A stretch of 51,618 nt of DNA. Source: a virus. The notes beneath the pieces were generated by a model. It was not told where the DNA came from and made no database searches. It worked only from the letters and a program-made list of their open reading frames with translations. Shown here piece by piece: positions 3,497 to 44,250 of this stretch; the first letter of the stretch is position 1; each line of letters starts with the position of its first letter. The position numbers and the translations under genes were made by a program. Where the stretch lies: positions 1-51,618 of the IMG/VR virus record IMGVR_UViG_3300025128_007159. One strand, written 5' to 3'.

Positions 3497-4939
3497 TTAA
3501 GACATCTCCCAACATTCTTTTACTATATTCTCTAATCTTTCACTTCCTTGTTCTAATGGAAAACTTCCATTCTTAACCTCATACATAACTGATATTGCAT
3601 CTTGTATTCTATCGTCATGTCGTCCCATCAAACCCTTAAAGTCATTTTTGAAAAAATTATCAAAATCACCTATCTGTAATGAGTTCATTGTAGGGCCTTC
3701 ACCGAGTCGAGTTGACAAATTCCACATAGAATACCAATTTCTCCATAACTCATAATGATTAAATGAAAGATATGAACCATATACTAAATCATCATTGTGT
3801 TTCAATAACTTACGATATAAATCTTCTAATGGTTTGAATTGTTCTACTGAAAAATCATTGTTATTGAAGGCCTGTAACACTTTTGGTATTAATGCCTTTA
3901 TTCCATCAAATGCAGTACACAAACCACGAGAATATAACGGGTCTATGAATCCATACGAATGTGGAAGAATACTCCACCTATTGCCAGTACAAGATTTTGA
4001 TGAGAATTGTATTCTTGGCTCAGTCACCCAAGGCCTAACTACTTTTGCATTCTTAAATTGTTCCCTAACATCAGGTAATGATTTGATTAAATCAATAACC
4101 TTATTTGGATAGTTTCTACGAAATGGAACTTTACTACATTGAAATCCTACACTTACAATCGGATTTGTAGACTCTGGTGTATTATTAAATGGAATCACCC
4201 ATAACCAACCACCCTCAACTATGTGATGCAGTGTTCCGTGATGAAATTTAGTCTTGAACTCAGATTCAATGACATTATCAAAAGGTTCAACATCTATCAT
4301 ATGAGTATAACAAGTAGATGAATTAGTTTTTACTTTGGGTATTGTATCTCTTAAATCGAATATCTTCGCTAATGGTGAGTTACTCCCTACTGCATCTATT
4401 ATGTATTGACATCTTATTTCTGAACCATCACTTAGTGTAACTCGAACTTCTTCATCTGATTTCACATCAGTTACTTTTGTGTTAAATAAAAATTTAGAAC
4501 CATATTTGATTGCGGCATTTACAACGTAAGAATCTACGTCTTGTCGATATAGATGCATTTCAGAACGACTTGGGTTGACGTGTTGAAACATTTCTTTTGG
4601 ATTTGATTTTTTACCCTCTTCATGATAAACATAACCAAAATTTTCTTTGACTCCGACACGACTTGCCAAATCCTTGAATATTTTATCAGTTGATAATAAA
4701 TCCACATTATAATACTTTACCAAACCATTCCAAACTGCAGTGAGATAGGGTATCATTGATTCACCTACAGAAAACTTTGGATGTGGTGTACTATCCACGA
4801 CCAACACCCTTAGTCCTTGTTTTGATAGTATTGCAGAAAGAAATGAACCTATTAATCCACTTCCAACTATTATAACATCTATGTTGTTAGGTATATTATC
4901 TGAATCTTGATAACTATATGTCGAATAATCTTCAAACAT
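3497..4939 (-). CDS. Flavin-dependent (tryptophan-type) halogenase
   Basis: The 480-residue protein has the two hallmarks of flavin-dependent halogenases: an FAD-binding GSGLIG at residues 26-31 after a hydrophobic strand, with GESMIP at 59-64, and the diagnostic WxWxIP motif as WLWVIP at 245-250. These enzymes use FADH2, O2 and halide to form hypohalous acid, which is passed to a lysine for regioselective halogenation; I cannot place that lysine with certainty (K98 is one candidate). A cyanophage enzyme of this class, VirX1, is known to iodinate many substrates, so a viral version is not unique. No flavin reductase is visible nearby, so reduced flavin would have to come from the host. Neighbours are small phage genes, giving no substrate clue. 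Confidence 0.9.
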   Translation of the reverse strand: MFEDYSTYSYQDSDNIPNNIDVIIVGSGLIGSFLSAILSKQGLRVLVVDSTPHPKFSVGESMIPYLTAVWNGLVKYYNVDLLSTDKIFKDLASRVGVKENFGYVYHEEGKKSNPKEMFQHVNPSRSEMHLYRQDVDSYVVNAAIKYGSKFLFNTKVTDVKSDEEVRVTLSDGSEIRCQYIIDAVGSNSPLAKIFDLRDTIPKVKTNSSTCYTHMIDVEPFDNVIESEFKTKFHHGTLHHIVEGGWLWVIPFNNTPESTNPIVSVGFQCSKVPFRRNYPNKVIDLIKSLPDVREQFKNAKVVRPWVTEPRIQFSSKSCTGNRWSILPHSYGFIDPLYSRGLCTAFDGIKALIPKVLQAFNNNDFSVEQFKPLEDLYRKLLKHNDDLVYGSYLSFNHYELWRNWYSMWNLSTRLGEGPTMNSLQIGDFDNFFKNDFKGLMGRHDDRIQDAISVMYEVKNGSFPLEQGSERLENIVKECWEMS

Positions 4940-11160: not shown

Positions 11161-11561
11161 TACTTGAAATTCCTTTTGATTTGTTCCCAACTTTCGAAGC
11201 GAATACCTTTATCATCAATATAAGCTACTGCATTGGGTTTAATATATGTTACGTCTTTAATATTTTGTTTTATTCCATGTTTCTCTAACCACTCCCAAAC
11301 TAATTCGATTCCATTCTTACCATCAATAAGAGGTCTATCAGGATTGGCCTTGCAACTATAGATTATTAAGTCATAACCTAATTCTTCATTTAAATATTTC
11401 ACACCCTCAATTGCACCTCTAAGTGGTTCATCGTATATTGTACCATCATGAAAACCTTTTGAATTTTTATGTATAACTCCATCAAAATCCAAACCAAGTT
11501 GACTCTTTTCGGTATCACTAACCATTTCTAAAAAGTCATCAAGTTCCATCTGATTTTCCAT
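11160..11561 (-). CDS. HAD-family phosphatase-like protein
   Basis: The 133-residue protein has HAD motif I as LDFDGVIH (nucleophile D25, general acid D27) and motif IV as AYIDDKG (D116, D117). YDLIIYSC looks like the strand ending motif II. The compact, capless size matches KdsC- or GmhB-like phosphatases. Placed between the SIS isomerase and the transferase, it could remove the phosphate from a ulosonate phosphate before cytidylylation. It overlaps the isomerase gene by 23 nt. Confidence 0.7.
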   Translation of the reverse strand: MENQMELDDFLEMVSDTEKSQLGLDFDGVIHKNSKGFHDGTIYDEPLRGAIEGVKYLNEELGYDLIIYSCKANPDRPLIDGKNGIELVWEWLEKHGIKQNIKDVTYIKPNAVAYIDDKGIRFESWEQIKRNFK

Positions 11562-12117
11562 ATTTTCTTATAAGTTCTGATTTTATTGTTGGACATGAAT
11601 TACCCGTTCCGTGAATTAATTGATAGAAAGTTAACTCCGACAATATTTCAACCGTGTGAAAATAATCCCTATCAAAACACACTTCATTTATTTTTTCATC
11701 AAGACAATTTGACTTTTGACCTGATATTAGTGCGGTGGATATATTATATCTGTCATTACACCAAGAAAGTGCTGACACCACATTCTTAGAATTACCTGAA
11801 CCTGATAAACCTATCACCATTGATTTCATATCAGGATAAATGTAGTCTTCTAACCACTTTATGAAAATGTTATCATATTTGTAATCATTTGCTATTGATG
11901 TAATGTAACTAACATTATCTAACGAGTAACATTTTTTATCAGTAAGTCTTGTGATATCAGAAGATGCATGAGAACAAACTGGTGAATTACCACCATTACC
12001 TATAAAATAGATATTATCTGCCTCATCAAAATCTTTTTGTAATTGTTTAAATTCATCGGTGTCAATTTTTGATTCAAATATTTCCAATAAATTTTCAAAC
12101 TCAACCATTCTACTCAT
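11539..12117 (-). CDS. SIS-domain sugar-phosphate isomerase (GmhA-like)
   Basis: The 192-residue protein is a single SIS domain. IYFIGNGGNSPVCSHASSDI corresponds to the GNGGS phosphate-binding loop of phosphoheptose isomerase GmhA, and VIGLSGSGNSKNVVSAL to the second Ser/Gly-rich loop. GmhA and KdsD enzymes convert ketose and aldose phosphates that feed heptose or Kdo pathways. Here it would supply the substrate for, or act beside, the DAHP-synthase-like enzyme. The start overlaps the cytidylyltransferase-cupin stop by 4 nt. Confidence 0.8.
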   Translation of the reverse strand: MSRMVEFENLLEIFESKIDTDEFKQLQKDFDEADNIYFIGNGGNSPVCSHASSDITRLTDKKCYSLDNVSYITSIANDYKYDNIFIKWLEDYIYPDMKSMVIGLSGSGNSKNVVSALSWCNDRYNISTALISGQKSNCLDEKINEVCFDRDYFHTVEILSELTFYQLIHGTGNSCPTIKSELIRKYGKSDGT

Positions 12118-13280
12118 TTTCTATCCTTTACATCATCACCAACATAGACATGGGCCACATCTTCTCTACTAACCGCCAACCTTATTGCTGGTTTACTCCC
12201 TATCGCATGTATTTGATGGGATTTACCTTTCTCTATGAAGACTAAATCTCCTTTTTTAACAATGAATGATTCATCTTCAATATCCCATTTCCAATGGCCA
12301 TCTACGATATACCACCACTCATTCCAACTTGGATGGTAATGTCTTCTATTACCCTCACCTGGTCTTTGACATATTAACGTCGCACTATTGTTTTCTGTAT
12401 TGACCAATCTTTTTGCCCAAGATGGTTTATTATTCTTGATAATCTCATCAATGTTTACAACTGAATGGTTTGCATCAAGAAAATCAGGATTTTCAACTCC
12501 ATCTTTATAAAGTATATCGTGATAATCATCGTGTGTTGTGTCTCTCTCAATTGTTACATCTAAATGTTTTTTAGGATCATAATATTGAGGTTTAGTATGT
12601 CGGTTCATATTCAAATGACTATGTACAACTTCAGCCAATCTAAAATCATCCTCAGTATCAATATCAATTGTTGACCATCCATCCAATTCAAAGAAACCAG
12701 TTCTTCCATCACCACCGTGATATGCTGAACTAAACTTTTTCATATTATCAACATACTTGTTTTTATTCCATGCCATTAAACCACAAGCATAAGATTGTAT
12801 GGGTTTTAAATCTTGTGAGGGTGGTGTAATTTCTTTTTGGTTAAAATTAATAGGATTACCATCGTAGATAGATTCAATTTGTATATTATTAACCGATATA
12901 AGAGTTTCATAATTATTATCGTGAAACTTTTTTACGAATAGTTTTACATCCTCAACTGAAATAAAAGGTGATGTAGAAAGTAACTGAACTAAATCATCAC
13001 ACTCTACGTTCTGTAAAAAATCATAAGCAAAATCATCATTCGTCTTATCATCTTCAGCAAGATAATCTGGTCTCTTATAAAACTTTACACCATATTTTTT
13101 TGCTATCGGTTCGAATATTTCTGATTCAGAATTAATATAAATTTCATCGAATACATTTGCCTTTATCGCAGTTTCAAGAACATAACATATTAAGGGTTTA
13201 CCATCGATTAACCTAAGATTTTTATTCTTAACCCTTTTACTACCTAACCTGACAGGAATCATGGCTATAGTTTTACTCAT
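12114..13280 (-). CDS. Cytidylyltransferase-cupin fusion
   Basis: Of 388 residues, the first 225 or so form a NeuA/KdsB-like CMP-sugar synthetase: IPVRLGSKRVKNKNLRLIDG is the CTP-binding loop, followed by LICYVLETA, QLLSTSPFIS and a C-terminal IDIDTEDDF metal-site motif. After a linker, residues about 300-380 form a cupin: HYHPSWNEWWYIVDG is the metal-binding first motif and KGDLVFIEKGKSHQIHA the second. The first domain would activate an acidic sugar with CMP; the cupin may epimerise, isomerise or sense the sugar. It overlaps the aminotransferase gene by 8 nt. Confidence 0.8.
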   Translation of the reverse strand: MSKTIAMIPVRLGSKRVKNKNLRLIDGKPLICYVLETAIKANVFDEIYINSESEIFEPIAKKYGVKFYKRPDYLAEDDKTNDDFAYDFLQNVECDDLVQLLSTSPFISVEDVKLFVKKFHDNNYETLISVNNIQIESIYDGNPINFNQKEITPPSQDLKPIQSYACGLMAWNKNKYVDNMKKFSSAYHGGDGRTGFFELDGWSTIDIDTEDDFRLAEVVHSHLNMNRHTKPQYYDPKKHLDVTIERDTTHDDYHDILYKDGVENPDFLDANHSVVNIDEIIKNNKPSWAKRLVNTENNSATLICQRPGEGNRRHYHPSWNEWWYIVDGHWKWDIEDESFIVKKGDLVFIEKGKSHQIHAIGSKPAIRLAVSREDVAHVYVGDDVKDRK

Positions 13281-14451
13281 TTAAAACTCCATTGATTAAA
13301 TTATACGCTTTATCAAACTCTTCTTCAGTAGTTGTTAAATGTGGTCTCAGTCTAACTGACTTATCACCTGTTGGATTACATAACATCCCACTTGAGAAGA
13401 GGTCATTAAAAAAATTGTCTCTTTGAGTTTGTGTATCAAAATCAAATGCTATCAAACAACCTTTCCCTCTAACATTATAAATATTATCTATCGTCTTCAA
13501 TCTATCAATAAATTTTTGACTTTCAATGGAAACTGACTCACGAAGATTTTCTTTCTCAATAACTTCCATCACATATGTTGACCTTATCATATCAATCAAA
13601 TCTGAGTCCCAAGTTGTGTATAATATCTTTGTATCAAGTATTGATGAAAATTCTTCTAATGCCATAAATCCACATACTTGTGCCTTCTTACCAAATATTA
13701 CTATGTCAGGATAAAAATCGAGATGTTCAAAGAACCAAGTTTTACCTGTTGCACAAAAACCTGTTTGAATCTCATCAAATATTAATGGAACGTTTAGTTC
13801 TGTACATAACTCTCGTATTCCTCTTAGAAATTCATAGTCTAAGTGATTGTCCCCATATGTAGATTGAATAGGTTCAACAATCACTCCTGCTATAGAATCA
13901 TCGGATTTAAGTAATTGTTCTAATTCGTCTAATGTCTCAAAGTGAGGCCATATACCACCACCAGGAAAACCATCCATTTTAGTTGAAATAGGATAGAATC
14001 TCGTGGTTAGTATGTTACTATAAGACATGATACCATGAAAATCATTTTTCACGGAGAGTATTTTAGGATTTTCTTTTTTAGTATGATGTATGGCGGCTTT
14101 GACTGCACATTCTACGGCCAATGCACCTGTGGAAACAAACCATGATTTTACATATTTCCCATTACATGAAGAGAACTCCATAAAATTTTTGTAAAATCTA
14201 TCATACTCATCCGTTGAAAACTCACAATTGACAATTTTAAATTTTGATACTTTTCTTATCTCATCTTGAAATGATTCTGTAGAGAATATTGGATGATTGT
14301 ATCCAATTGGAATTGAGGAAAACATACCAAAGAAATCAAGATAAGATTTATTTGTATTTTTATCAAAAATGTAACTACCATTACTCTTATCAAAATCATA
14401 TCTTATATTAAATATACCCTTGTCAGGTTCCCCTGCATACATATTATTCAA
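13273..14451 (-). CDS. Class III aminotransferase (lysine 6-aminotransferase-like)
   Basis: The 392-residue PLP enzyme has the class III pattern: FVSTGALAVECAVKAA for phosphate binding, VIVEPIQSTYGD, then FDEIQTGFCATGKTWFFEH with the PLP-ring Asp, and the Schiff-base Lys in IFGKKAQVCGF. The last motif is characteristic of L-lysine 6-aminotransferases rather than of glutamate-1-semialdehyde mutases. In this module it could transfer an amino group to a sugar precursor or make an amino-acid-derived decoration. Start and order fit cotranscription with the DAHP-synthase-like gene 6 nt upstream. Confidence 0.8.
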   Translation of the reverse strand: MNNMYAGEPDKGIFNIRYDFDKSNGSYIFDKNTNKSYLDFFGMFSSIPIGYNHPIFSTESFQDEIRKVSKFKIVNCEFSTDEYDRFYKNFMEFSSCNGKYVKSWFVSTGALAVECAVKAAIHHTKKENPKILSVKNDFHGIMSYSNILTTRFYPISTKMDGFPGGGIWPHFETLDELEQLLKSDDSIAGVIVEPIQSTYGDNHLDYEFLRGIRELCTELNVPLIFDEIQTGFCATGKTWFFEHLDFYPDIVIFGKKAQVCGFMALEEFSSILDTKILYTTWDSDLIDMIRSTYVMEVIEKENLRESVSIESQKFIDRLKTIDNIYNVRGKGCLIAFDFDTQTQRDNFFNDLFSSGMLCNPTGDKSVRLRPHLTTTEEEFDKAYNLINGVLNE

Positions 14452-14457
14452 AACAAA

Positions 14458-15318
14458 TTATTCCTTTGTCATCTGACTATAAGCTGGATGTTTAACATTC
14501 CTAACTATACTTTGTAGTGTATCTAATGAAATAGCTTGGTCGGCATCACTTATTGATTCTGTTGGATTTGGATGGGACTCTATTATCAACCCATCTGCTC
14601 CTGCAGATATTGCTGCGTATGATATTGATGGAACGAAGTTTCTATATCCTGTGGCGTGACTTGGATCGTATATGATTGGAATATCACATAACTCTTTTAA
14701 TGCTGGTATCATCATCAAGTCAGGTGCCCATCTGATTGACGGAAACACATGACGATAAGATGGTGCTCCAACCACTCCTCTCAAACATATTGCAACTTTC
14801 TCATTACCCTTTACTAATATTCTTTCTACTGCTCCAAGTATCTCATCAATCGTTCCCCAAGTTCCTCGTTTCAATAAGATTGGTATATCCAACTCACCTA
14901 ACGCATCTAATAGGGTGTAGTTTTGAAAGTTACGAGTTCCAACTTGAACTATGTCAATACAATCCATCGTGGATTCTGTAATTTGATTTGAATCCATTAT
15001 TTCAGATACGATTGGTAATCCAGTTTCTTCTCGTGCTGTTTTCAAAAATCTTAAACCCTCTTCTCTCAATCCTTCTTTCCAACCATTTTTACCAACTTCT
15101 TCCGTTACAGGAAATGTACAAGGTTTATATGCTCCACCTCGTAATGCATTAACACGAACACCTTTCATTTTATGTGCCCAATCCACAATCATTTCTTCTG
15201 ATTCAACTGAACAAGGGCCTGATATAACATATGGACTATCGTCAAACTTCCATCTATCTGGTTGTAATGATATGTCTAATTTTTTAGCATCTACTAATGA
15301 TTGTATATATGTGTTCAT
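14458..15318 (-). CDS. DAHP synthase-like 3-deoxy-ulosonate phosphate synthase
   Basis: The 286-residue protein follows type I-beta DAHP synthases (AroA/AroG of Bacillus type, related to KdsA): YVISGPCSVESEEM at the PEP site, ALRGGAYKPCTFP, GLPIVSEIMD, LLKRGTWGT, IIYDPSHATG and the C-terminal IESHPNPTESISDADQAIS. These enzymes condense PEP with erythrose 4-phosphate (or arabinose 5-phosphate for KdsA). A phage shikimate role is possible, but the flanking cytidylyltransferases, SIS isomerase and HAD gene suggest an activated ulosonic acid. It overlaps cytidylyltransferase 2 by 4 nt. Confidence 0.85.
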   Translation of the reverse strand: MNTYIQSLVDAKKLDISLQPDRWKFDDSPYVISGPCSVESEEMIVDWAHKMKGVRVNALRGGAYKPCTFPVTEEVGKNGWKEGLREEGLRFLKTAREETGLPIVSEIMDSNQITESTMDCIDIVQVGTRNFQNYTLLDALGELDIPILLKRGTWGTIDEILGAVERILVKGNEKVAICLRGVVGAPSYRHVFPSIRWAPDLMMIPALKELCDIPIIYDPSHATGYRNFVPSISYAAISAGADGLIIESHPNPTESISDADQAISLDTLQSIVRNVKHPAYSQMTKE

Positions 15319-15923
15319 CTTTCACTCCTTATATTTTTAAATTCTATATGTCTCTCTGCCTGTCTTAAATCCTCTTCACTATGGATGTTGGTACAATCAT
15401 CGAGATAACTTCCAACTCTACGACTCATCATACCACTCTCTACAAATTCTTTTTTTGTGATTCTAACCGCACCATTTCGTGTACCATTTGAATCAACTGT
15501 GACTAAATCATCGTATTTATTCTCCACAGCGTATGTTAATAGTTCATCCACATTAGTTCTTCTATCAGGATGGTCAGGTTGTATTCCAACTACATGAGTT
15601 GTTGTTTGAGGTATTCTCCATTCACCTGAATTTGGAAAGTCATTTTTAAACACATTAACATAAACATCAGCAACTTCTCTTTCTCCCATAAATTCTTCAT
15701 CTCTCCAATAAAAAATACATCCGTTTTCTTTTGCTATTTTTTCCACCTCTTCACTATTACTCGTGACCACGATATCTTTAATTAATTTAGAGTTCTTAGC
15801 ATAATCTATTGCGTGTTCAACAAGAGTTTTATTTGCAATTACTCTTAAATTCTTTTTCTTTAATCTTGTGGAGTCTGTTTTGGCTGGTATGATAGCTAAT
15901 CCACATATGTTAGTTGATTTCAT
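15315..15923 (-). CDS. CMP-sugar (acylneuraminate/Kdo-type) cytidylyltransferase
   Basis: This 202-residue enzyme is a single-domain CMP-sugar synthetase. AIIPAKTDSTRLKKKNLRVI is the CTP-binding loop; KDIVVTSNSEEVEKIAKENG and VVGIQPDHPDRRTNVDELL are typical positions of the NeuA fold. It is shorter than the first cytidylyltransferase and lacks a cupin. Two such genes in one module suggest two CMP-sugars, or one active and one regulatory copy. It sits 1 nt after the upstream methyltransferase gene. Confidence 0.8.
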   Translation of the reverse strand: MKSTNICGLAIIPAKTDSTRLKKKNLRVIANKTLVEHAIDYAKNSKLIKDIVVTSNSEEVEKIAKENGCIFYWRDEEFMGEREVADVYVNVFKNDFPNSGEWRIPQTTTHVVGIQPDHPDRRTNVDELLTYAVENKYDDLVTVDSNGTRNGAVRITKKEFVESGMMSRRVGSYLDDCTNIHSEEDLRQAERHIEFKNIRSER

Positions 15924-32721: not shown

Positions 32722-32751
32722 AATATACGAATAATTTTGTATATAAGTCAA
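32722..32751 (-). promoter_or_regulatory. Phage promoter for the nuclease-glycan operon
   Basis: Minus-strand TTGACT (32751-32746), 18-nt spacer ending ATTATTCG, TATATT (32727-32722), with AAAAAGGC before the -35 box. The -35 region overlaps the stop of the gp62 gene. It is the last promoter of this family seen before the glycan block. Confidence 0.8.
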
Positions 32752-33188
32752 GCCTTTTTATAAATTTTTTTCAATTGTTTGTCATCAACACCATATTTCA
32801 TTATAATTGTTGTGACTTGTTCTTTGGTTAATAACTCTAAGTATTCTTCCACTTCTCTCGTACTACATTCAAAATAGTCTGTTAGATGTTCCATTGCCCA
32901 TTTCTCAACTTTTGATTTCTTTTTTGATTTAACATACCGAAGAAATGTTCTACCCTTTGGTATTACATCTATATAAAACTGATACACATTCTTAGGAGCC
33001 AACTCCCAATACTTTTGTATCTCATTCACCACTTGTAACCACTCCGATTTCATACTAAGAAACCTATGAACCATATAATTACTCCAAGTCTTTTTATCTG
33101 ATTCAGTAAGATTGTCCCAATACAGAGTGTTCTGTACGTTTGTGATTTGTTTTATGTGGTCAAACAGACTCTTCAATTCCACTACCAT
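32748..33188 (-). CDS. 62: Clamp-loader small subunit (gp62-like)
   Basis: The 146-residue protein matches marine T4-like gp62 proteins as I remember them: NYMVHRFLSMKSEWL, then NVYQFYIDVIPKGRTFLRY, and an acidic-basic helical C-terminus. T4 gp62 is longer (187 residues). With gp44 it forms the ATP-driven loader that opens the gp45 clamp onto DNA. Unusually it is separated from gp44 by a radical SAM gene and a zinc-ribbon gene. Its start overlaps the zinc-ribbon gene by 29 nt. Confidence 0.75.
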   Translation of the reverse strand: MVVELKSLFDHIKQITNVQNTLYWDNLTESDKKTWSNYMVHRFLSMKSEWLQVVNEIQKYWELAPKNVYQFYIDVIPKGRTFLRYVKSKKKSKVEKWAMEHLTDYFECSTREVEEYLELLTKEQVTTIIMKYGVDDKQLKKIYKKA

Positions 33189-33414
33189 CTAATAAAGACT
33201 TTGGAACTTTTCCACAATTACCACAACTGTAAACTTGAACAGGTACAAGTCCCTCTTCACCATTAGGTGACATAATTGCAGATATTCTTTTGATGACATA
33301 TGAGTTTATAAACAGATAATTATTACAATCTTCACATTGTAAAGTATCTGCCTTTGATAAATCCACAGTTTTCTTTGGTTTTTTTCCGAGTTGCCTCATT
33401 GGTTTAGTGCTCAT
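33160..33414 (-). CDS. Small zinc-ribbon phage protein
   Basis: The 84-residue protein has two Cys pairs, LQCEDCNNYLF and VYSCGNCGKVP, spaced as a zinc ribbon with a short beta insertion (VIKRISAIMSPNGEEGLVP). Similar small ribbons lie in replication operons of marine T4-like phages. A role in binding DNA or the clamp loader is plausible but inferred from position. It ends inside the gp62 start region. Confidence 0.65.
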   Translation of the reverse strand: MSTKPMRQLGKKPKKTVDLSKADTLQCEDCNNYLFINSYVIKRISAIMSPNGEEGLVPVQVYSCGNCGKVPKSLLDGSGIEESV

Positions 33415-33416
33415 TA

Positions 33417-34583
33417 CTACTCCTCTATATTTGTGTAAATTTCTAAATTTTTATACTTTGTTCTCATATCTTTTACTTTTTCCATTTCTTTCTTAAAATC
33501 TTTATATTTTGGATGTTCTTCATTATTAATATTTTTAATCTTCCAAACTAAATCTGAAAAGGTTCCCCAATTATTTATATGAATAAAATTTACTTCTGTT
33601 TTCATTCCGTTTAACTTTTGGAAGTAATCTGACATCTCAATAAAACCTATCATCTCTTTGTAATTGTTATCTTGTACCACAAAAGTCATTCTTACAAAAT
33701 CTAAGTTTGATATATCTGTAAAGATAAAATGTAAATTCTTTTGTAATCTTTTCCAATTACCACCAACTCTGATTTTATCATAAGTTTCTTTAGTACAGGC
33801 ATCAATACTAATTTCTGCAGTTACTCGTGGAATTTCATGTAGGTTACTTAGATTCTCCCACATCTTTCTTGTCCACCCATTTCCATTTGTATGTATATGT
33901 AGATTTCGTGTATCAGGATACTTTTCCATAGTGATTGATTTTAATAAGTTTCTCCAAAACTCTCCACCAAAACCATCACCACTAGCTGTGATGTATAATT
34001 CATTTGCGTTATCCATAGCATCACATAAAATTATTTCTTGTATCTTTTCAGACTTCTTTCTTTCTTCACCCTCTGTCTGTATGTAATCCAATCTACAACT
34101 TGGACACTTTAAATTACAACTTCTATCATGAGAGAATATAACACATTCAGGCCCCCAAGGCAACTTTACCATTTTCTCTGATATGATTTGTTTCCATTTA
34201 TCCTCACCATTTGGATTTATTTCTTCTGCGTTCCATAACTTATGATATGTTGATTCATCATAAATTGGAAAGTATCCATTATCATAGATGGTTTCATCCA
34301 CATCATCATTATACCAACGATTTAAAAACCCACACTCAGTAGAATCACAATACTTAAAATCACCATCGTGCATTGATTGTCTAAGTTTTTGTGAAGTTTC
34401 TCCATTCCAAATATCTTCCCATTTATCTTCTAATGAATTACCACTTGGGCCACAAGTTATCCAAGCGTTAACCCATCGTTTTTCTTCTTCACTCCACCCA
34501 CCTGATACACATTGCCATACTTTACCATCGTGGAAAAATTCTGCATTTCTGAATGGTGCTACACAAAATCCCTTTCGTTTCAC
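33417..34583 (-). CDS. Radical SAM enzyme with N-terminal Cys-rich (SPASM-like) region
   Basis: The 388-residue protein has the radical SAM signature CNLKCPSC (C156, C160, C163) and strands with ASGDGFGGEF, the glycine-rich SAM site. The N-terminus is Cys-rich (C7, C25, C44, C79, C84) with GFCVAPFRNAEFFHDGKVW, resembling a SPASM/twitch auxiliary cluster, which usually lies C-terminally. Such enzymes modify peptides or sugars. The gene splits the gp44-gp62 pair and overlaps gp44 by 4 nt, so it is expressed with the clamp loader. The substrate is unknown. Confidence 0.85.
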   Translation of the reverse strand: MKRKGFCVAPFRNAEFFHDGKVWQCVSGGWSEEEKRWVNAWITCGPSGNSLEDKWEDIWNGETSQKLRQSMHDGDFKYCDSTECGFLNRWYNDDVDETIYDNGYFPIYDESTYHKLWNAEEINPNGEDKWKQIISEKMVKLPWGPECVIFSHDRSCNLKCPSCRLDYIQTEGEERKKSEKIQEIILCDAMDNANELYITASGDGFGGEFWRNLLKSITMEKYPDTRNLHIHTNGNGWTRKMWENLSNLHEIPRVTAEISIDACTKETYDKIRVGGNWKRLQKNLHFIFTDISNLDFVRMTFVVQDNNYKEMIGFIEMSDYFQKLNGMKTEVNFIHINNWGTFSDLVWKIKNINNEEHPKYKDFKKEMEKVKDMRTKYKNLEIYTNIEE

Positions 34584-35515
34584 TTTACCTTTCCGATTAT
34601 CTCAACAAACATCGCCATAATATTTATCTCTTTATCCACAACTACTGCATCTGATTGTTGATATTGAGCCAATATCAATATACATTCTGCAACATGACCT
34701 CTACCCCAATCATCTACAGTATCAAATAATAATCTAAATAAATCACTAAAGTCTGTTACCTTTGAATCTGCCAATAGTTGTCTTATATTTTTAAACGAAT
34801 TCTTTTTATCTTGTGTTTTCAAGATTTCCAATACTTGGTTTTTATAATCATTCTGAATACTCATACCCTCATCAATAACCAACTCACCATTCACTACTTG
34901 TCTTTGTGATGCGTTAATAACTCTTCGTAAATCAGGAAAACCACCATTCACTATTGTTACAATATTCTCTAATTTGTATTTAACATTTTCATTGTCCAAT
35001 ATATTTGATAAGTGTTGAGCAACTTGTTTTCTATCAGGTGGAACTATCTGAAATGATTGACATCTTGATTGTATCGGGTCAATGATTCTCTCAACATAAT
35101 TACAAGTCAATATAAACCTACAATTCTTACTAAATGTTTCCATTAGATTACGAAGAGCAGCTTGTGCGTTAGGTGTAATATAATCACACTCATCCAAGAT
35201 GATAACTTTCATATCTTTGAAACCTAATGTTGATGCGAAGTTCTTTACTTTCTCACGAACCACATCCACACTATTCTCATCAGATGCATTAATATATAGA
35301 TAATCACAATCTATATTGTTAACCAACAATTTAGCTAGTGTTGTCTTACCTGTACCGGCCCTTCCGTATAAGAGAAGATGTGGTAAATCTCCACTCTCAA
35401 GGTAAACGGATACTTTACTTTTGAGATGGTCGTTTCCAATGTAAGTATCCATTGTATTAGGTCGGTACTTTTCTACCCACAAAGTATGTTTTACTTCATT
35501 CATTTTCATCTTCAT
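34580..35515 (-). CDS. 44: Clamp-loader large subunit (gp44, RFC-like AAA+ ATPase)
   Basis: The 311-residue AAA+ protein has VEKYRPNTMDTYIG, Walker A GRAGTGKT (residues 51-58), Walker B VIILDECDY, sensor LTCNYV and the SRC motif IQSRCQSF, as in T4 gp44 and eukaryotic RFC small subunits. It hydrolyses ATP to load the gp45 clamp at primer ends. Its start region overlaps the 59-residue ORF upstream; the 4-nt overlap downstream leads into the radical SAM gene. Confidence 0.95.
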   Translation of the reverse strand: MKMKMNEVKHTLWVEKYRPNTMDTYIGNDHLKSKVSVYLESGDLPHLLLYGRAGTGKTTLAKLLVNNIDCDYLYINASDENSVDVVREKVKNFASTLGFKDMKVIILDECDYITPNAQAALRNLMETFSKNCRFILTCNYVERIIDPIQSRCQSFQIVPPDRKQVAQHLSNILDNENVKYKLENIVTIVNGGFPDLRRVINASQRQVVNGELVIDEGMSIQNDYKNQVLEILKTQDKKNSFKNIRQLLADSKVTDFSDLFRLLFDTVDDWGRGHVAECILILAQYQQSDAVVVDKEINIMAMFVEIIGKVK

Positions 35516-35675: not shown

Positions 35676-36060
35676 CTACTTTTTCCCATTTATCATTTGA
35701 ATCTAATTTAAATGCCCCTATGAATATCCATTTATTATATTGAGGTTCTACTAAACTTAAAAAAAGGGTTCCACTTTCTCTTTGATAAAGATAATATGTA
35801 TCACCTTTTACGGGTTCAAATTTAAAATCAGAACCATAAACTAACTTATTCCACTCATAGGCTTCTATTAATTTTTTATACTCTTCTTTAATTTCATTGT
35901 ATCTTGCTTCAAAATAATGATTTGTTTTAGCAACTTTCTCATTCTTCCAAGTATCAACATCATCAGGTCTTATCGCTGGTGCTCCGACATTATCACCATA
36001 TGGCATAACAGATTTGTTCTCTGCAAACATATCAGGTTTTTTATCTTGATTATCACTCAT
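35668..36060 (-). CDS. DUF2452-like phage protein
   Basis: I start at ATG 36060, which overlaps the methyltransferase stop as ATGA. The 130-residue protein has YGDNVGAPAIRPDDVDTWKN, then NHYFEARYNEIKEEYKKLIE, and a C-terminal WIFIGAFKLDSNDKWEKV, the pattern I recall for DUF2452 proteins (related to human C1orf50), common in T4-like cyanophages. The function is unknown. The location inside the clamp/clamp-loader operon suggests a replication-linked role. Confidence 0.65.
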   Translation of the reverse strand: MSDNQDKKPDMFAENKSVMPYGDNVGAPAIRPDDVDTWKNEKVAKTNHYFEARYNEIKEEYKKLIEAYEWNKLVYGSDFKFEPVKGDTYYLYQRESGTLFLSLVEPQYNKWIFIGAFKLDSNDKWEKVDE

Positions 36061-37271
36061 ACTTTTTTCCATATCCATATAGGTTCACAAAATGTTTTAT
36101 CTTGTGTATCTAAAGTTTTTTGTAATGATTCATCAGTATAATCAAGTGATTTTGCAGTTCCAGCTCCACCACTATTAGGTCGTTTAGCCATTTCCATTCC
36201 TATACAACCTTGATACTCTGAATCAGTAAATGTTGATAAGAAATCATTCATTGGATTACATATCTCTAACCAACTCTTAGTTGATTTTACACTAGCATAT
36301 ACATCAGATATATTAACACATAGATAACCATCAGATTTTATTGAAGGCCATAATTTTTTTAATGTTTTTTGTAGAAAATCTTTATTCCAATCATCTATAT
36401 CTTTGTACCTAACCCAACTTTGAGTATCATCATAACTATATCTCTCAACACTAAAATAAGGTGGTGATGTAAAGACTGTATCATACATATTTTCTCTGTA
36501 TTCAAAATCCTCTGCTGGTGATTCTACAAACATACTTTTTTTAGGAACCTCAAACATCGTTCTATGTTTATCATAAAATTGTTTCTGTTCTTCATAGATA
36601 GGATGATTTTCTTTTCTTGGATCTATCCCAATATAGAACTCACCTGTTTCACTACCATAAAATCCAGCCAATCTATCTCCCCAACCTGCACTAAAGTCTA
36701 AGATACTTTTACTACCCAACTTATCATACAATACTTTGGCAACATTTGGTTTGAATTGAGAACAAATATACTTTCTTAATCCAATCATAGTCCTCAACAC
36801 ACTACGATTTATCTTAGGTAACTTCAATGTATAGGCCGCCCCCATCAAACTCGTCATAAATTTTTCATTTTCCCAAGTTCTCTTTGGGCCAGGACTTACT
36901 GAACCATCAACACTCCATCGATTTACTTGTTGAAAGAAATTACTTGCATCATTACCACTATTGATTCTTCTGAAATATTGTTGTTTACCTTCGAATGTTA
37001 AATCATATCTATATTGAGTACCTTCACGTGCAAACCACTCACCCTCTACCAAGATTTCATTATGTCTCATACCTTTCAATCTTTTCAAATCGTTGTATGC
37101 ATCATTTTCTGAAATCTCGGCATAAGGTATTTCGTAGGTCATAGCAACTTTTGCCAGACTTTCTTTAACATCTTGTTTATCAAATGTTTCTTTTATATAC
37201 TCCCACTCTTCCTCTTCAATTGAAAGATATGGTTTCATATTTAAGAATTTATCAAAGTATTTTAAATACAT
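36057..37271 (-). CDS. DNA methyltransferase (N4/N6-type)
   Basis: The 404-residue protein has motif I as SILDFSAGWGDRLAGFYGS and the catalytic motif IV as TSPPYFS, typical of N6-adenine/N4-cytosine DNA methyltransferases. GYLCVNISDVY follows as a later strand. The N-terminal 150 residues could hold the target-recognition part. No partner restriction enzyme lies next to it, so an orphan protective or regulatory role is likely. It shares a base with the gp45 stop. Confidence 0.8.
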   Translation of the reverse strand: MYLKYFDKFLNMKPYLSIEEEEWEYIKETFDKQDVKESLAKVAMTYEIPYAEISENDAYNDLKRLKGMRHNEILVEGEWFAREGTQYRYDLTFEGKQQYFRRINSGNDASNFFQQVNRWSVDGSVSPGPKRTWENEKFMTSLMGAAYTLKLPKINRSVLRTMIGLRKYICSQFKPNVAKVLYDKLGSKSILDFSAGWGDRLAGFYGSETGEFYIGIDPRKENHPIYEEQKQFYDKHRTMFEVPKKSMFVESPAEDFEYRENMYDTVFTSPPYFSVERYSYDDTQSWVRYKDIDDWNKDFLQKTLKKLWPSIKSDGYLCVNISDVYASVKSTKSWLEICNPMNDFLSTFTDSEYQGCIGMEMAKRPNSGGAGTAKSLDYTDESLQKTLDTQDKTFCEPIWIWKKV

Positions 37272-41423: not shown

Positions 41424-44198
41424 TTAGAAATTTACAACTATACCAATGTTAGCATAACGTGGTGTTCCTAAGAATACCTCTGCGTTATGTGGTAGGTGAA
41501 GTTTATCACCGAAACCATTGTATTGTGAATTGTCAACTGCGTCTTGTACATAAACTGCGTCAAGAGCGTTGAAAATGTGACCAGTTAGACTCATATCAAG
41601 ACCACCAACTTTTGGTAGTTTGTATGAACCATGTAGGTCTAAACGATTGTACTTTGGTGCCATCCATACTTGGTCTCTATCAGCATCAGCATCACTTCCA
41701 TCATACTCACGTGCATTTGGACTCCAATCAGCGTAGTTCTTATCGTACATCTTAAAGATACCTTGTAGTCTAAGACCCTTGATTGGTGTAAGTGTTGCAC
41801 CCATGACATAAGCTGTCTGAGGCATATCACCCACGAATAATCCATTAAGTGCATAAGAGTAAGGTGTGGTCTTTAGACCGATTACCTGACCTGCATCATT
41901 GTACTCATTCTCTTGATAGTTACCTTTTGCATCTCCATCAAACTTCCACTTACCAAATGATACTGCTCCGTCTAAACGAATCATGTCATTAAGTTTCATT
42001 GAAGCTTCAATCTCAAGACCTTGGTGTTTCTGATTGATACCACTCAAGAAAATCACGTCAGTATCACCTGAGTCACCTTGACCTGTTGTTACAGATTTAG
42101 TTTGGTTTCTATCCATCCAATCAGTATTGTAAGCACTCACTTTAACTGCTACATTCTCAGTATTGAAGTTTACACCAGCTTCTGAACTGATGAACTTTTC
42201 GTTAGATGGGTCTGAAGCGACTGTACCATCAAAGTAGATTACGTTATCCATGATAGGTGGTTTCTGAACGTAGCCTGTGTTAGCAAATACACTAACATTA
42301 TCGTCTACGTCATACATAGCTCCACCCTTAACTTGGAAAGTTGAGATAGCATCTGCTGTAATCACTTCATCAGCAACTGTAAAGTGGTCTTGGTAAGAAT
42401 ACTTGATACTTGAAACTCCACCCATACCATAAACATTTAGTTTATCTTTAGTGTAGTTACCTTGTAAGAATCCACCAATCCAATCGACTGTAGTGTGATT
42501 GTGATAAGCGATGATGTCACCTAAACCGACCTTTTTACCATCAGGTGCATTATCATCAGCATAGTCTACATAGTAGTCACCGCCAAGTAAGTCACGAACT
42601 TCACGAGCGTGTTCTATACCTGCAGTTCTCCAATCTAAACCAAGTTGAATCTCAAGTTCGTCACTAACTTCATAGTTAAGTTTTGAAATCAAACCATAAG
42701 TATCTTGACGATTGATTGAGTTACGAAGAATACCCTTTGAACGATTCATTGTCGCATCAAAGTTAGCATCAACGTTGTTTGAATTGGTTGCAATAGCTGC
42801 ATCCCAATCCCAACCCCATGGTGAACTTCTATACCACCTTTCACCATCTACAGCTGGTTTTCTGAATGATGAACCGTATGTACCAGTTCCACCACCTGAA
42901 CCACCACTCCAATACAATACTGAACTTAGTCTTGTCTTTTCGTTGATAGTCATAAAGTGGTTTAGGTTTACTAATGGCTTATGAAAGAAGTTTTCTCTTT
43001 CATTTAAGAAACCAGAGTTATATCTGTCTTGATTTCCACCACCAAATAGTCCACCAACTCCATACATATACCAATATTGTTTACCAGTATAATCTGAACT
43101 TACAGGAGCCCAATTCTGATTAAATGTACGACCACCTTCTGTTTGGAACTTAGCACCGTCAGCAAAAGCATTGACATCATATCCATCGACATCACCAGCT
43201 AACTCTTGTGAGTAAGTAGCGATATTCTGTTTGTACAGATTTTGACCGTGACGTTGTGGAGCGCCAATTGCATATAATTCAAATCTATTGTTTTCATTCA
43301 TCTGAAAACTAGAACCTAAATAATAAGCCCATGCGTCTGTCCAAGTAGCGTCGATGATACCATCACCAGTCTTACGAACCAAAGTTCCACTCAATGCTAA
43401 CTTGTCTCCCATCATCAAACCAGTATTGTAGTTAAAAGTAGTTTTCAAGAAATTACCTGCACCACCTTCTTGTTTGAATTTACCACCTTTTTCAGCTCCA
43501 GCTGGATTTGTTATGATGTTCATAGTTCCACCAATTGATGGTGTAGCTAAATTAACAGCCGATAGACCTCTTTGTAACTGAATAGAGTTAGCTGCATCTG
43601 CTACTCCGTCCCAATTACTCCAATAAACCCATCCGTTCTCCATATCATTTTGGGGAACACCGTTAATCATAACTGCTACGTTTCTTTGATTGAATCCACG
43701 AACATTGATACGAGCATCACCCGCACCACCACCTTGTTGTGTTGCATATACACTTGGTGTAGTATTTAGAGCCATTGGAATATCTTGTGACCCAAGACGA
43801 ACTTCTAACTCTTCTTTACTTACAGTTGTGTAAGCAACAGGTGTTTTATCATCAGCCCTTGAAGCCAAAACCTCAACGTCTGATAATTCAATCACGTTTA
43901 GTGGAAGAACAAAAGCCATCATTAAATCTGTATCTGCTTCTGTTACTTTCACGGTTTGTGATTGTGGTTTAAACCCAATTACCGTCGCTGTAATTGTGTA
44001 GTCACCAGCACCTAAATCAAGTACAAATGTACCAGTTTCATCTGAAATTGTACCTAATTCGGTTCCTACTACAACAATGTTAGCATTTGGTAAGGGGTCT
44101 CCTGCTTCTGATGTAACTTTTCCTGTTACCGATTGTGAAAACAACATTATCGGTGTGAGTAGAGTCATCATCATAGCAATTAGATTACGACTTTTCAT
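41424..44198 (-). CDS. TonB-dependent outer-membrane receptor
   Basis: I start at ATG 44198, behind AGGAGATTCGAT, because it gives a signal peptide (KSRNLIAMMMTLLTPIMLF, cleavage near SQS); an upstream ATG is unlikely. The 924-residue protein then has a carboxypeptidase-D-like beta domain (GKVTSEAGDPLPNANIVVVG), a plug domain (DIPMALNTTPSVYATQ, INVRGFNQRNVAVMINGVPQ, GGTMNIITNP) and a long beta-barrel ending in RYANIGIVVNF with the terminal Phe used for outer-membrane insertion. It has the length and all parts of an intact receptor for TonB-driven uptake of siderophores, vitamin B12 or glycans. Such a gene inside a phage replication core is extraordinary. The ligand cannot be read from sequence. 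Confidence 0.92.
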   Translation of the reverse strand: MKSRNLIAMMMTLLTPIMLFSQSVTGKVTSEAGDPLPNANIVVVGTELGTISDETGTFVLDLGAGDYTITATVIGFKPQSQTVKVTEADTDLMMAFVLPLNVIELSDVEVLASRADDKTPVAYTTVSKEELEVRLGSQDIPMALNTTPSVYATQQGGGAGDARINVRGFNQRNVAVMINGVPQNDMENGWVYWSNWDGVADAANSIQLQRGLSAVNLATPSIGGTMNIITNPAGAEKGGKFKQEGGAGNFLKTTFNYNTGLMMGDKLALSGTLVRKTGDGIIDATWTDAWAYYLGSSFQMNENNRFELYAIGAPQRHGQNLYKQNIATYSQELAGDVDGYDVNAFADGAKFQTEGGRTFNQNWAPVSSDYTGKQYWYMYGVGGLFGGGNQDRYNSGFLNERENFFHKPLVNLNHFMTINEKTRLSSVLYWSGGSGGGTGTYGSSFRKPAVDGERWYRSSPWGWDWDAAIATNSNNVDANFDATMNRSKGILRNSINRQDTYGLISKLNYEVSDELEIQLGLDWRTAGIEHAREVRDLLGGDYYVDYADDNAPDGKKVGLGDIIAYHNHTTVDWIGGFLQGNYTKDKLNVYGMGGVSSIKYSYQDHFTVADEVITADAISTFQVKGGAMYDVDDNVSVFANTGYVQKPPIMDNVIYFDGTVASDPSNEKFISSEAGVNFNTENVAVKVSAYNTDWMDRNQTKSVTTGQGDSGDTDVIFLSGINQKHQGLEIEASMKLNDMIRLDGAVSFGKWKFDGDAKGNYQENEYNDAGQVIGLKTTPYSYALNGLFVGDMPQTAYVMGATLTPIKGLRLQGIFKMYDKNYADWSPNAREYDGSDADADRDQVWMAPKYNRLDLHGSYKLPKVGGLDMSLTGHIFNALDAVYVQDAVDNSQYNGFGDKLHLPHNAEVFLGTPRYANIGIVVNF

Positions 44199-44226
44199 AT
44201 CGAATCTCCTTGTTATTGTTATGAAC

Positions 44227-44250
44227 GACACATTTTTTCACAGGTGTGTC
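44227..44250 (-). other. Inverted repeat in the receptor leader
   Basis: Minus-strand GACACA and TGTGTC flank a 12-nt loop about 30 nt upstream of the receptor start codon. It could be an operator or RNA hairpin controlling the receptor. No consensus promoter was found between it and the reductase stop. Confidence 0.4.

Follow-up and report, generated by a model that had tools for sequence, protein, structure and literature searches.

Organization of the locus

The window analysed here is the whole of the IMG/VR virus record IMGVR_UViG_3300025128_007159 (51,618 nt). On its minus strand, a gene for a radical SAM enzyme lies between homologues of both T4-type clamp-loader subunits, gp44 and gp62, which were recognized with PHROGs models (Table 1). 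In T4, the genes for gp44 and gp62 are neighbours. A zinc-ribbon gene is located between the radical SAM gene and gp62, and overlaps gp62 by 29 nt; a family-model scan of the 84-aa zinc ribbon gave no match over the cut-off. The initial annotation had placed a radical SAM enzyme and a zinc-ribbon gene between the two subunits, with a 4-nt overlap to gp44, and the ORFs, the Pfam and PHROGs matches and the sequence at the overlap agree with this description. A DUF1599 gene, the Pfam name of which is nucleotide-modification-associated domain, is located close to gp62.

Table 1. Features of the clamp-loader locus in the window
Feature	Position	Strand	Evidence or remark
gp62-like clamp-loader subunit	32748..33188	-	phrog_225, 1.9e-18
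Zinc-ribbon protein, 84 aa, CX2C...CX2C	33160..33414	-	between radical SAM gene and gp62
Radical SAM enzyme gene	33417..34583	-	ORF; 388 aa; GTG start
Radical SAM C-X3-C-X2-C motif (C156, C160, C163)	34095..34118	-	invariant in 64/64
N-terminal SPASM-type domain, residues 7-80	34344..34565	-	PF13186 above gathering threshold
GTGA, 4-nt overlap of gp44 stop and radical SAM start	34580..34583	-	ORF and sequence reading
gp44-like clamp-loader ATPase subunit	34580..35515	-	phrog_168, 2e-87

According to the GTGA overlap, co-expression of the radical SAM gene with gp44 is probable, as the initial annotation had suggested; this is judged from position. The location of the gene is not due to chance or to an assembly artefact, because the gene is present at this joint in other contigs with 86-99% identity and the dN/dS values are 0.06-0.14 (21 pairs of seven sequences, with dS above 1 in some pairs). 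The radical SAM gene is under strong purifying selection.

Other genes of the window were also noted. The region 41424..44231 (-) encodes a 935-aa TonB-dependent receptor with CarbopepD_reg_2 and Plug domains, and adjoins a B12-type ribonucleotide reductase. Relatives of the receptor were found in 319 viral-contig stretches, the best 80 of the 319 with 68-100% identity, and some of them share contigs with gp44 loci. This conserved phage-borne outer-membrane receptor merits its own study. An apparent nucleotide-sugar pathway run at 11539..15923 (-) contains CMP-sugar synthase-, NeuB/KDO8P synthase-, aminotransferase- and GmhA-like genes, as read by eye. The FAD-dependent oxidoreductase at 3497..4939 (-) has a Trp_halogenase match (6.3e-10). 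The DNA-methylase-like protein at 36057..37271 (-) matches PF01555 just under the gathering threshold (9.9e-6). In one clade of the gp44 tree its gene lies upstream of gp44; the other clade (33 rows) gave no match in the flanks fetched, some of which are short.

Domains and predicted fold of the enzyme

The N-terminal region, described as unusual and Cys-rich in the initial annotation, corresponds to a SPASM-type domain. PF13186 passes its gathering threshold at residues 7-80 (25.0 bits against 21.5), and the predicted structure is of high confidence. Radical_SAM (PF04055) is matched at residues 154-287 below the gathering threshold (21.8 bits against 29.5). The core motif C156-X3-C160-X2-C163 is invariant in all 64 aligned family members. 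The N-terminal C7, C25, C79 and C84 are likewise invariant in 64 of 64, and C79 and C84 sit at, or just beyond, the end of the SPASM-type domain. The typical SPASM domain is C-terminal and has seven Cys residues and two clusters, whereas the domain of the window enzyme is N-terminal and its invariant Cys residues are only four, so that the seven-Cys two-cluster motif is absent. The four residues are predicted to form one auxiliary 4Fe-4S site.

The best NCBIfam match of the enzyme is NF033640 (N_Twi_rSAM, twitch domain-containing), which likewise combines an N-terminal auxiliary-cluster domain with a radical SAM barrel. However, the score of 54.8 bits falls short of the cut-off, 170, and a search of the whole window record with NF033640 also stayed under the cut-off. 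Among nine scanned relatives (three phage and six cellular), NF033640 was the first row for eight and the third for L136. None of the nine reached the cut-off, the top score being 90.0 bits.

The AlphaFold2 model built with 64 sequences (pLDDT 93.9, pTM 0.91) shows a radical SAM barrel; with 15 sequences only, the pLDDT was 77.0. In the VIA structural ranking, DesII, a deoxysugar (nucleotide-sugar) radical SAM enzyme, is placed first (Z 16.7, rmsd 3.8, 235 residues aligned). SkfB is second (Z 15.5), and many radical SAM barrels are found at Z 13-15. The 50 matches listed range from Z 12.6 to 16.7 and are almost all radical SAM enzymes. The top Foldseek match is SuiB. A profile search of PDB sequences with the enzyme gave no matches. 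The resemblance to DesII is one of fold only; the identity is 11%, and the next fold is only 1.2 Z behind. SuiB and SkfB are SPASM enzymes; the window enzyme passes PF13186 and matches their barrels. The structural matches seem to reflect mostly the barrel; the ranking hardly discriminates, and leaves the substrate unfixed. Viperin and pVip also share the barrel (Z up to 14.7), whereas the window enzyme has an additional N-terminal Cys domain. A PADLOC scan of the window enzyme with E values up to 0.01 returned no families, so pVip is unmatched; the cellular relative L164 has a weak pVip match (5.3e-6). A viperin-like antiviral enzyme was rejected on these grounds.

The gp44/zinc-ribbon joint in related phages

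The gp44 search of viral contigs gave 569 relatives, and the best 80 were kept. A radical SAM match is present at 21 of the best 80 loci, among which contigs and near-copies repeat. From 103 locus rows, including second loci of some contigs, 61 gp44 variants were drawn. The zinc ribbon directly overlaps gp44 by 4 nt in 45 of them, 15 have the radical SAM gene and one has another insert; the carrier share is inflated because the rows include repeated loci from the same contig and loci fetched by the radical SAM query. When duplicates were removed by identity of a 700-nt gp44 core, L087 and L089 were fused with radical SAM-bearing phages. A quick gp44 tree was therefore calculated with 63 rows, namely the 61 variants, the window and L087. 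In this carrier-enriched set, the joint is empty in 45 variants, holds the radical SAM gene in 16 and holds other inserts in two. The 16 carriers comprise nine at 86-100% identity, six of the 48-50% group and one of the 33% type. On the tree, the radical SAM label needs six changes, at least five of which are forced by starred branches.

The gp44 genes of L087 and L009 are identical at 918 of 930 bases (98.7%). The cargo at the joint is a GT2 (family 2) glycosyltransferase in L087 and the radical SAM gene in L009. The joint of L083 holds a PfkB-type sugar kinase and a second gene without assignment. In the empty relatives, the zinc-ribbon start overlaps the gp44 stop, likewise by 4 nt. The gp44/zinc-ribbon joint is a cargo exchange site in the replication operon, and the radical SAM gene is optional at this joint. 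As relatives are often without the gene or have other cargo, it looks like optional cargo and not like copying machinery.

The zinc ribbon and the interval before gp62

The zinc ribbon is located downstream of gp44 in all 61 gp44 variants, whether or not they carry the radical SAM gene. In Microcystis phage Mel-JY01, gp44, the zinc ribbon and gp62 follow one another with overlaps of 4 nt and then 1 nt. The uncultured phage LR756508 (484 kb) has a zinc ribbon ~2.4 kb past gp44, and gp62 another ~1.9 kb on; a TnpB-like ORF (read by eye) and an ATPase-like ORF lie between gp44 and the zinc ribbon. The zinc ribbon is an old partner of gp44. In Synechococcus phage ACG-2014f, gp44 and gp62 are parted by a 96-aa protein, which is unlike the zinc ribbon, and a glutaredoxin. 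Thus, the split of the clamp-loader pair to which the initial annotation drew attention is real here, but it is not special to the window, because the zinc ribbon follows gp44 in the relatives and in Mel-JY01, and the pair is also split in ACG-2014f and LR756508. The LR756508 gp44 itself is interrupted by an intein-looking segment, with the TnpB-like ORF next to it (L315:5965-7359, by eye).

Among the 52 loci in which the sequence continues for more than 4.5 kb past gp44, Hint/intein-like and 2OG-Fe(II) oxygenase genes are both present in 50. One of the other two has Hint only, and L012, a radical SAM carrier, has neither. The gp62 gene was found past the array in six variants, 4.4-5.6 kb from the zinc ribbon. 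Pfam was scanned with 119 of 136 interval ORFs from 18 hand-picked loci; L102 (a near-copy of L018) and the radical SAM and outer ORFs were omitted. Forty of the 119 proteins match 2OG-FeII_Oxy_3, and 11 match Acetyltransf_1. In L058:7115-11543, L018:8221-12799 and similar intervals, an acetyltransferase, a Hint/intein-like protein and one to five 2OG-Fe(II) oxygenases were observed. Other cargo is present in L012:7356-12505: another radical SAM protein, a Sulfotransfer_4 match, an unmatched 521-aa protein, and a core resembling class II tRNA synthetases that scores under the gathering threshold.

One explanation of the enzyme is peptide or protein tailoring, together with the Hint protein, the 2OG-Fe(II) oxygenases and the acetyltransferase of this interval. 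It is consistent with the abundance of 2OG oxygenases among the interval proteins, with the radical SAM gene in 11 of the 50 loci that have Hint and 2OG, and with the structural matches, since SuiB, top in Foldseek, and SkfB, second by Z, are peptide maturases. However, the enzyme occurs both with and without the array. In the window, L001, L007 and L010, which carry the radical SAM gene, as well as in L036, the array is absent and gp62 directly follows the zinc ribbon; L012 has the gene without any Hint or 2OG match; and the array is present with an empty joint in 38 loci. Moreover, no precursor-peptide-like ORF was noted beside the enzyme among ORFs of at least 40 aa. We regard this explanation as unlikely. 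In a broader version, the whole clamp-loader interval would be a tailoring locus: the Hint/2OG/acetyltransferase array would be its conserved part, the radical SAM enzyme an interchangeable extra step, and the product a modified self-processed protein or peptide made during genome copying. This version is rather improbable.

Viral relatives away from the joint

The viral-contig scan for the enzyme yielded 17 loci when one protein was the query and 33 when an alignment was used. In tblastn searches of 50,697 phage records, no match was found with the window enzyme, nor with the more distant L050. By identity, the joint homologues fall at 86-99%, in a 48-50% group (L018, L023, L035 and others) and in a 33-36% type (L050 and L051, the contigs of which are L111 and L112).

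Five relatives of ~71% identity are located away from gp44, with no gp44 match within the fetched flanks. The gene order is 5'-exonuclease, radical SAM gene and Cpn10 in L100, with DnaB nearby, and DnaB, radical SAM gene and dUTPase in L013. The copies of L097-L099 are found in tailoring-gene islands with Trp halogenase, FkbM methyltransferase, 2OG oxygenases, GDSL-type hydrolase and dTDP-sugar epimerase; two of the three island 2OG oxygenases tested are under gathering, and several other island genes were read by eye only. In L097, the radical SAM gene has the Trp halogenase (1.5e-91) as its upstream neighbour. A reading of sulfotransferases by eye was rejected, as L097 497-1066 has no Pfam match and L099 5372-5989 has only a weak unrelated match.

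These loci bear on the proposal of the initial annotation that the role of the enzyme is tied to the clamp loader. As an early replication-linked enzyme, it would modify the clamp loader, a nucleotide or the phage DNA. In every joint copy with its start inside the locus, there is a 4-nt overlap between this start and the gp44 stop, the L013 and L100 copies adjoin 5'-exonuclease, DnaB and dUTPase while the window-type copies adjoin gp44, and DUF1599 is near gp62 in the window. Nevertheless, 45 of the 63 gp44 variants lack the gene and two have other cargo in its place, the ~71% relatives have other neighbours, and some relatives reside in tailoring islands. The nearest empty-site relative, L036, retains the DUF1599 gene while the radical SAM enzyme is absent. 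No replication family is prominent among the top 25 families of the 144 cellular neighbours described below. A replication-linked role is thus quite doubtful, and the clamp-loader tie was not upheld. DNA hypermodification was also rejected: the DUF1599 gene stays in L036 without the enzyme, and the part of PMC9301287 available to us holds nothing for this gene. In that part, 261 instances of ahbD-type genes are reported, with PF13186 and PF04055 together on three contigs only (PMC9301287).

The cellular family

A first genome scan found no cellular relatives. A motif-pattern scan gave at least 120 loci, and 101 of the 120 listed scored above 150 bits with an HMM built from the phage sequences. 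From among the matches listed, 53 cellular sequences remained after filtering by score and length; they belong to Planctomycetota, Pseudomonadota, Bdellovibrionota, Bacteroidota, archaea and others. The enzyme belongs to a large bacterial and archaeal family near NF033640, below the cut-off of that model.

The nearest cellular relatives among the matches listed are from Scalindua, Brocadia and MAGs labelled Planctomycetia, Nitrospinae and Nitrospirae, with 35-40% identity. The Scalindua copy L164 (40% identity, the nearest among the matches listed) is located amid GT1 and GT2 glycosyltransferases. The neighbours of L228, from a MAG labelled Nitrospirae, are DUF6473, Methyltransf_24 and a weak sulfotransferase match. 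The neighbour scan covered 144 of 151 ORFs from 48 loci; seven ORFs, including the GT2 neighbour of L164, were dropped for length, and five of the 53 loci contributed no neighbour ORFs. The 144 neighbours include six Glycos_transf_2, six Glycos_transf_1, three Sulfotransfer_3 and seven Radical_SAM matches, and the rest are mixed; these counts stand without a control set. Around the closest relatives and in some of the phage islands a sugar context is evident, and family-wide it is weak, because L164, L228 and the islands contrast with the mixed 144 neighbours. The initial annotation had considered that homologues might occur in glycan clusters only, which would point to a recent insertion. The glycosyltransferases beside the nearest cellular relatives agree with this picture, but the mixed neighbours of the wider family do not.

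In L226:871-5344 (a Lysobacterales MAG), the family member has, by eye, a carbamoyl-phosphate synthase small-chain-like ORF on one side and DapB- and DnaJ-like ORFs on the other, outside any glycan cluster. The carbamoyl-phosphate synthase small-chain, DapB and DnaJ families account for three, two and two to three of the 144 scanned neighbours, respectively.

In a quick tree of 11 phage and 53 cellular sequences, ten of the 11 phage copies form one supported (starred) clade, and L050 is apart. As this clade is separate from the cellular copies, the gene seems to have been phage-borne for a long time, and a recent acquisition from a host was rejected. The same clade and the low dN/dS values make it highly improbable that the gene is a neutral hitch-hiker, a recently acquired host gene of no phage function, despite its patchy distribution.

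Proposed role

The explanation we favour, with somewhat better than even confidence, is that the gene is an optional tailoring-enzyme cassette of a marine T4-like phage lineage, expressed via the replication operon, with glycan or surface decoration as the favoured function. Beyond the anatomy, the optionality, the exchange at the joint, the selection and the predicted fold described above, we infer its expression, chemistry and substrate. Sitting between gp44 and its zinc-ribbon partner, the cassette would be read with the replication operon, and the 4-nt overlap suggests translational coupling and expression. According to the invariant motif and the fold, the core cluster would cleave SAM to give a 5'-deoxyadenosyl radical in the barrel. 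The N-terminal SPASM-type domain would hold one auxiliary 4Fe-4S cluster, which may serve in substrate positioning or electron transfer. The product most likely modifies a sugar, a glycan or another surface or small-molecule substrate, and would have no part in clamp loading. The enzyme gene would be one among the interchangeable tailoring genes traded by these phages.

A comparable situation has been described in pelagimyophages, the variable host-recognition islands of which differ by radical SAM cassettes and also contain glycosyltransferases, according to the part of the report available to us (PMC7029224). Compared by that description only, both cases concern T4-like marine phages with radical SAM cassettes in a variable site, whereas the pelagimyophage cassettes are in the host-recognition cluster and the window gene is at the gp44/zinc-ribbon joint (PMC7029224). 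Radical SAM genes and glycosyltransferases are also prevalent in Tasman Sea samples, as stated in the accessible part of another report (PMC7150976). Within the literature searched, a radical SAM gene at the clamp-loader joint was not found.

The enzyme represents a large family of radical SAM proteins with an N-terminal SPASM-type domain, for which no scanned NCBIfam model is matched at its cut-off. The phage copies are under selection, and would lend themselves to expression and assay. For the marine T4-like phages, the locus illustrates how tailoring enzymes are inserted without disturbing the core, one 4-nt overlap within the replication operon being replaced by another.
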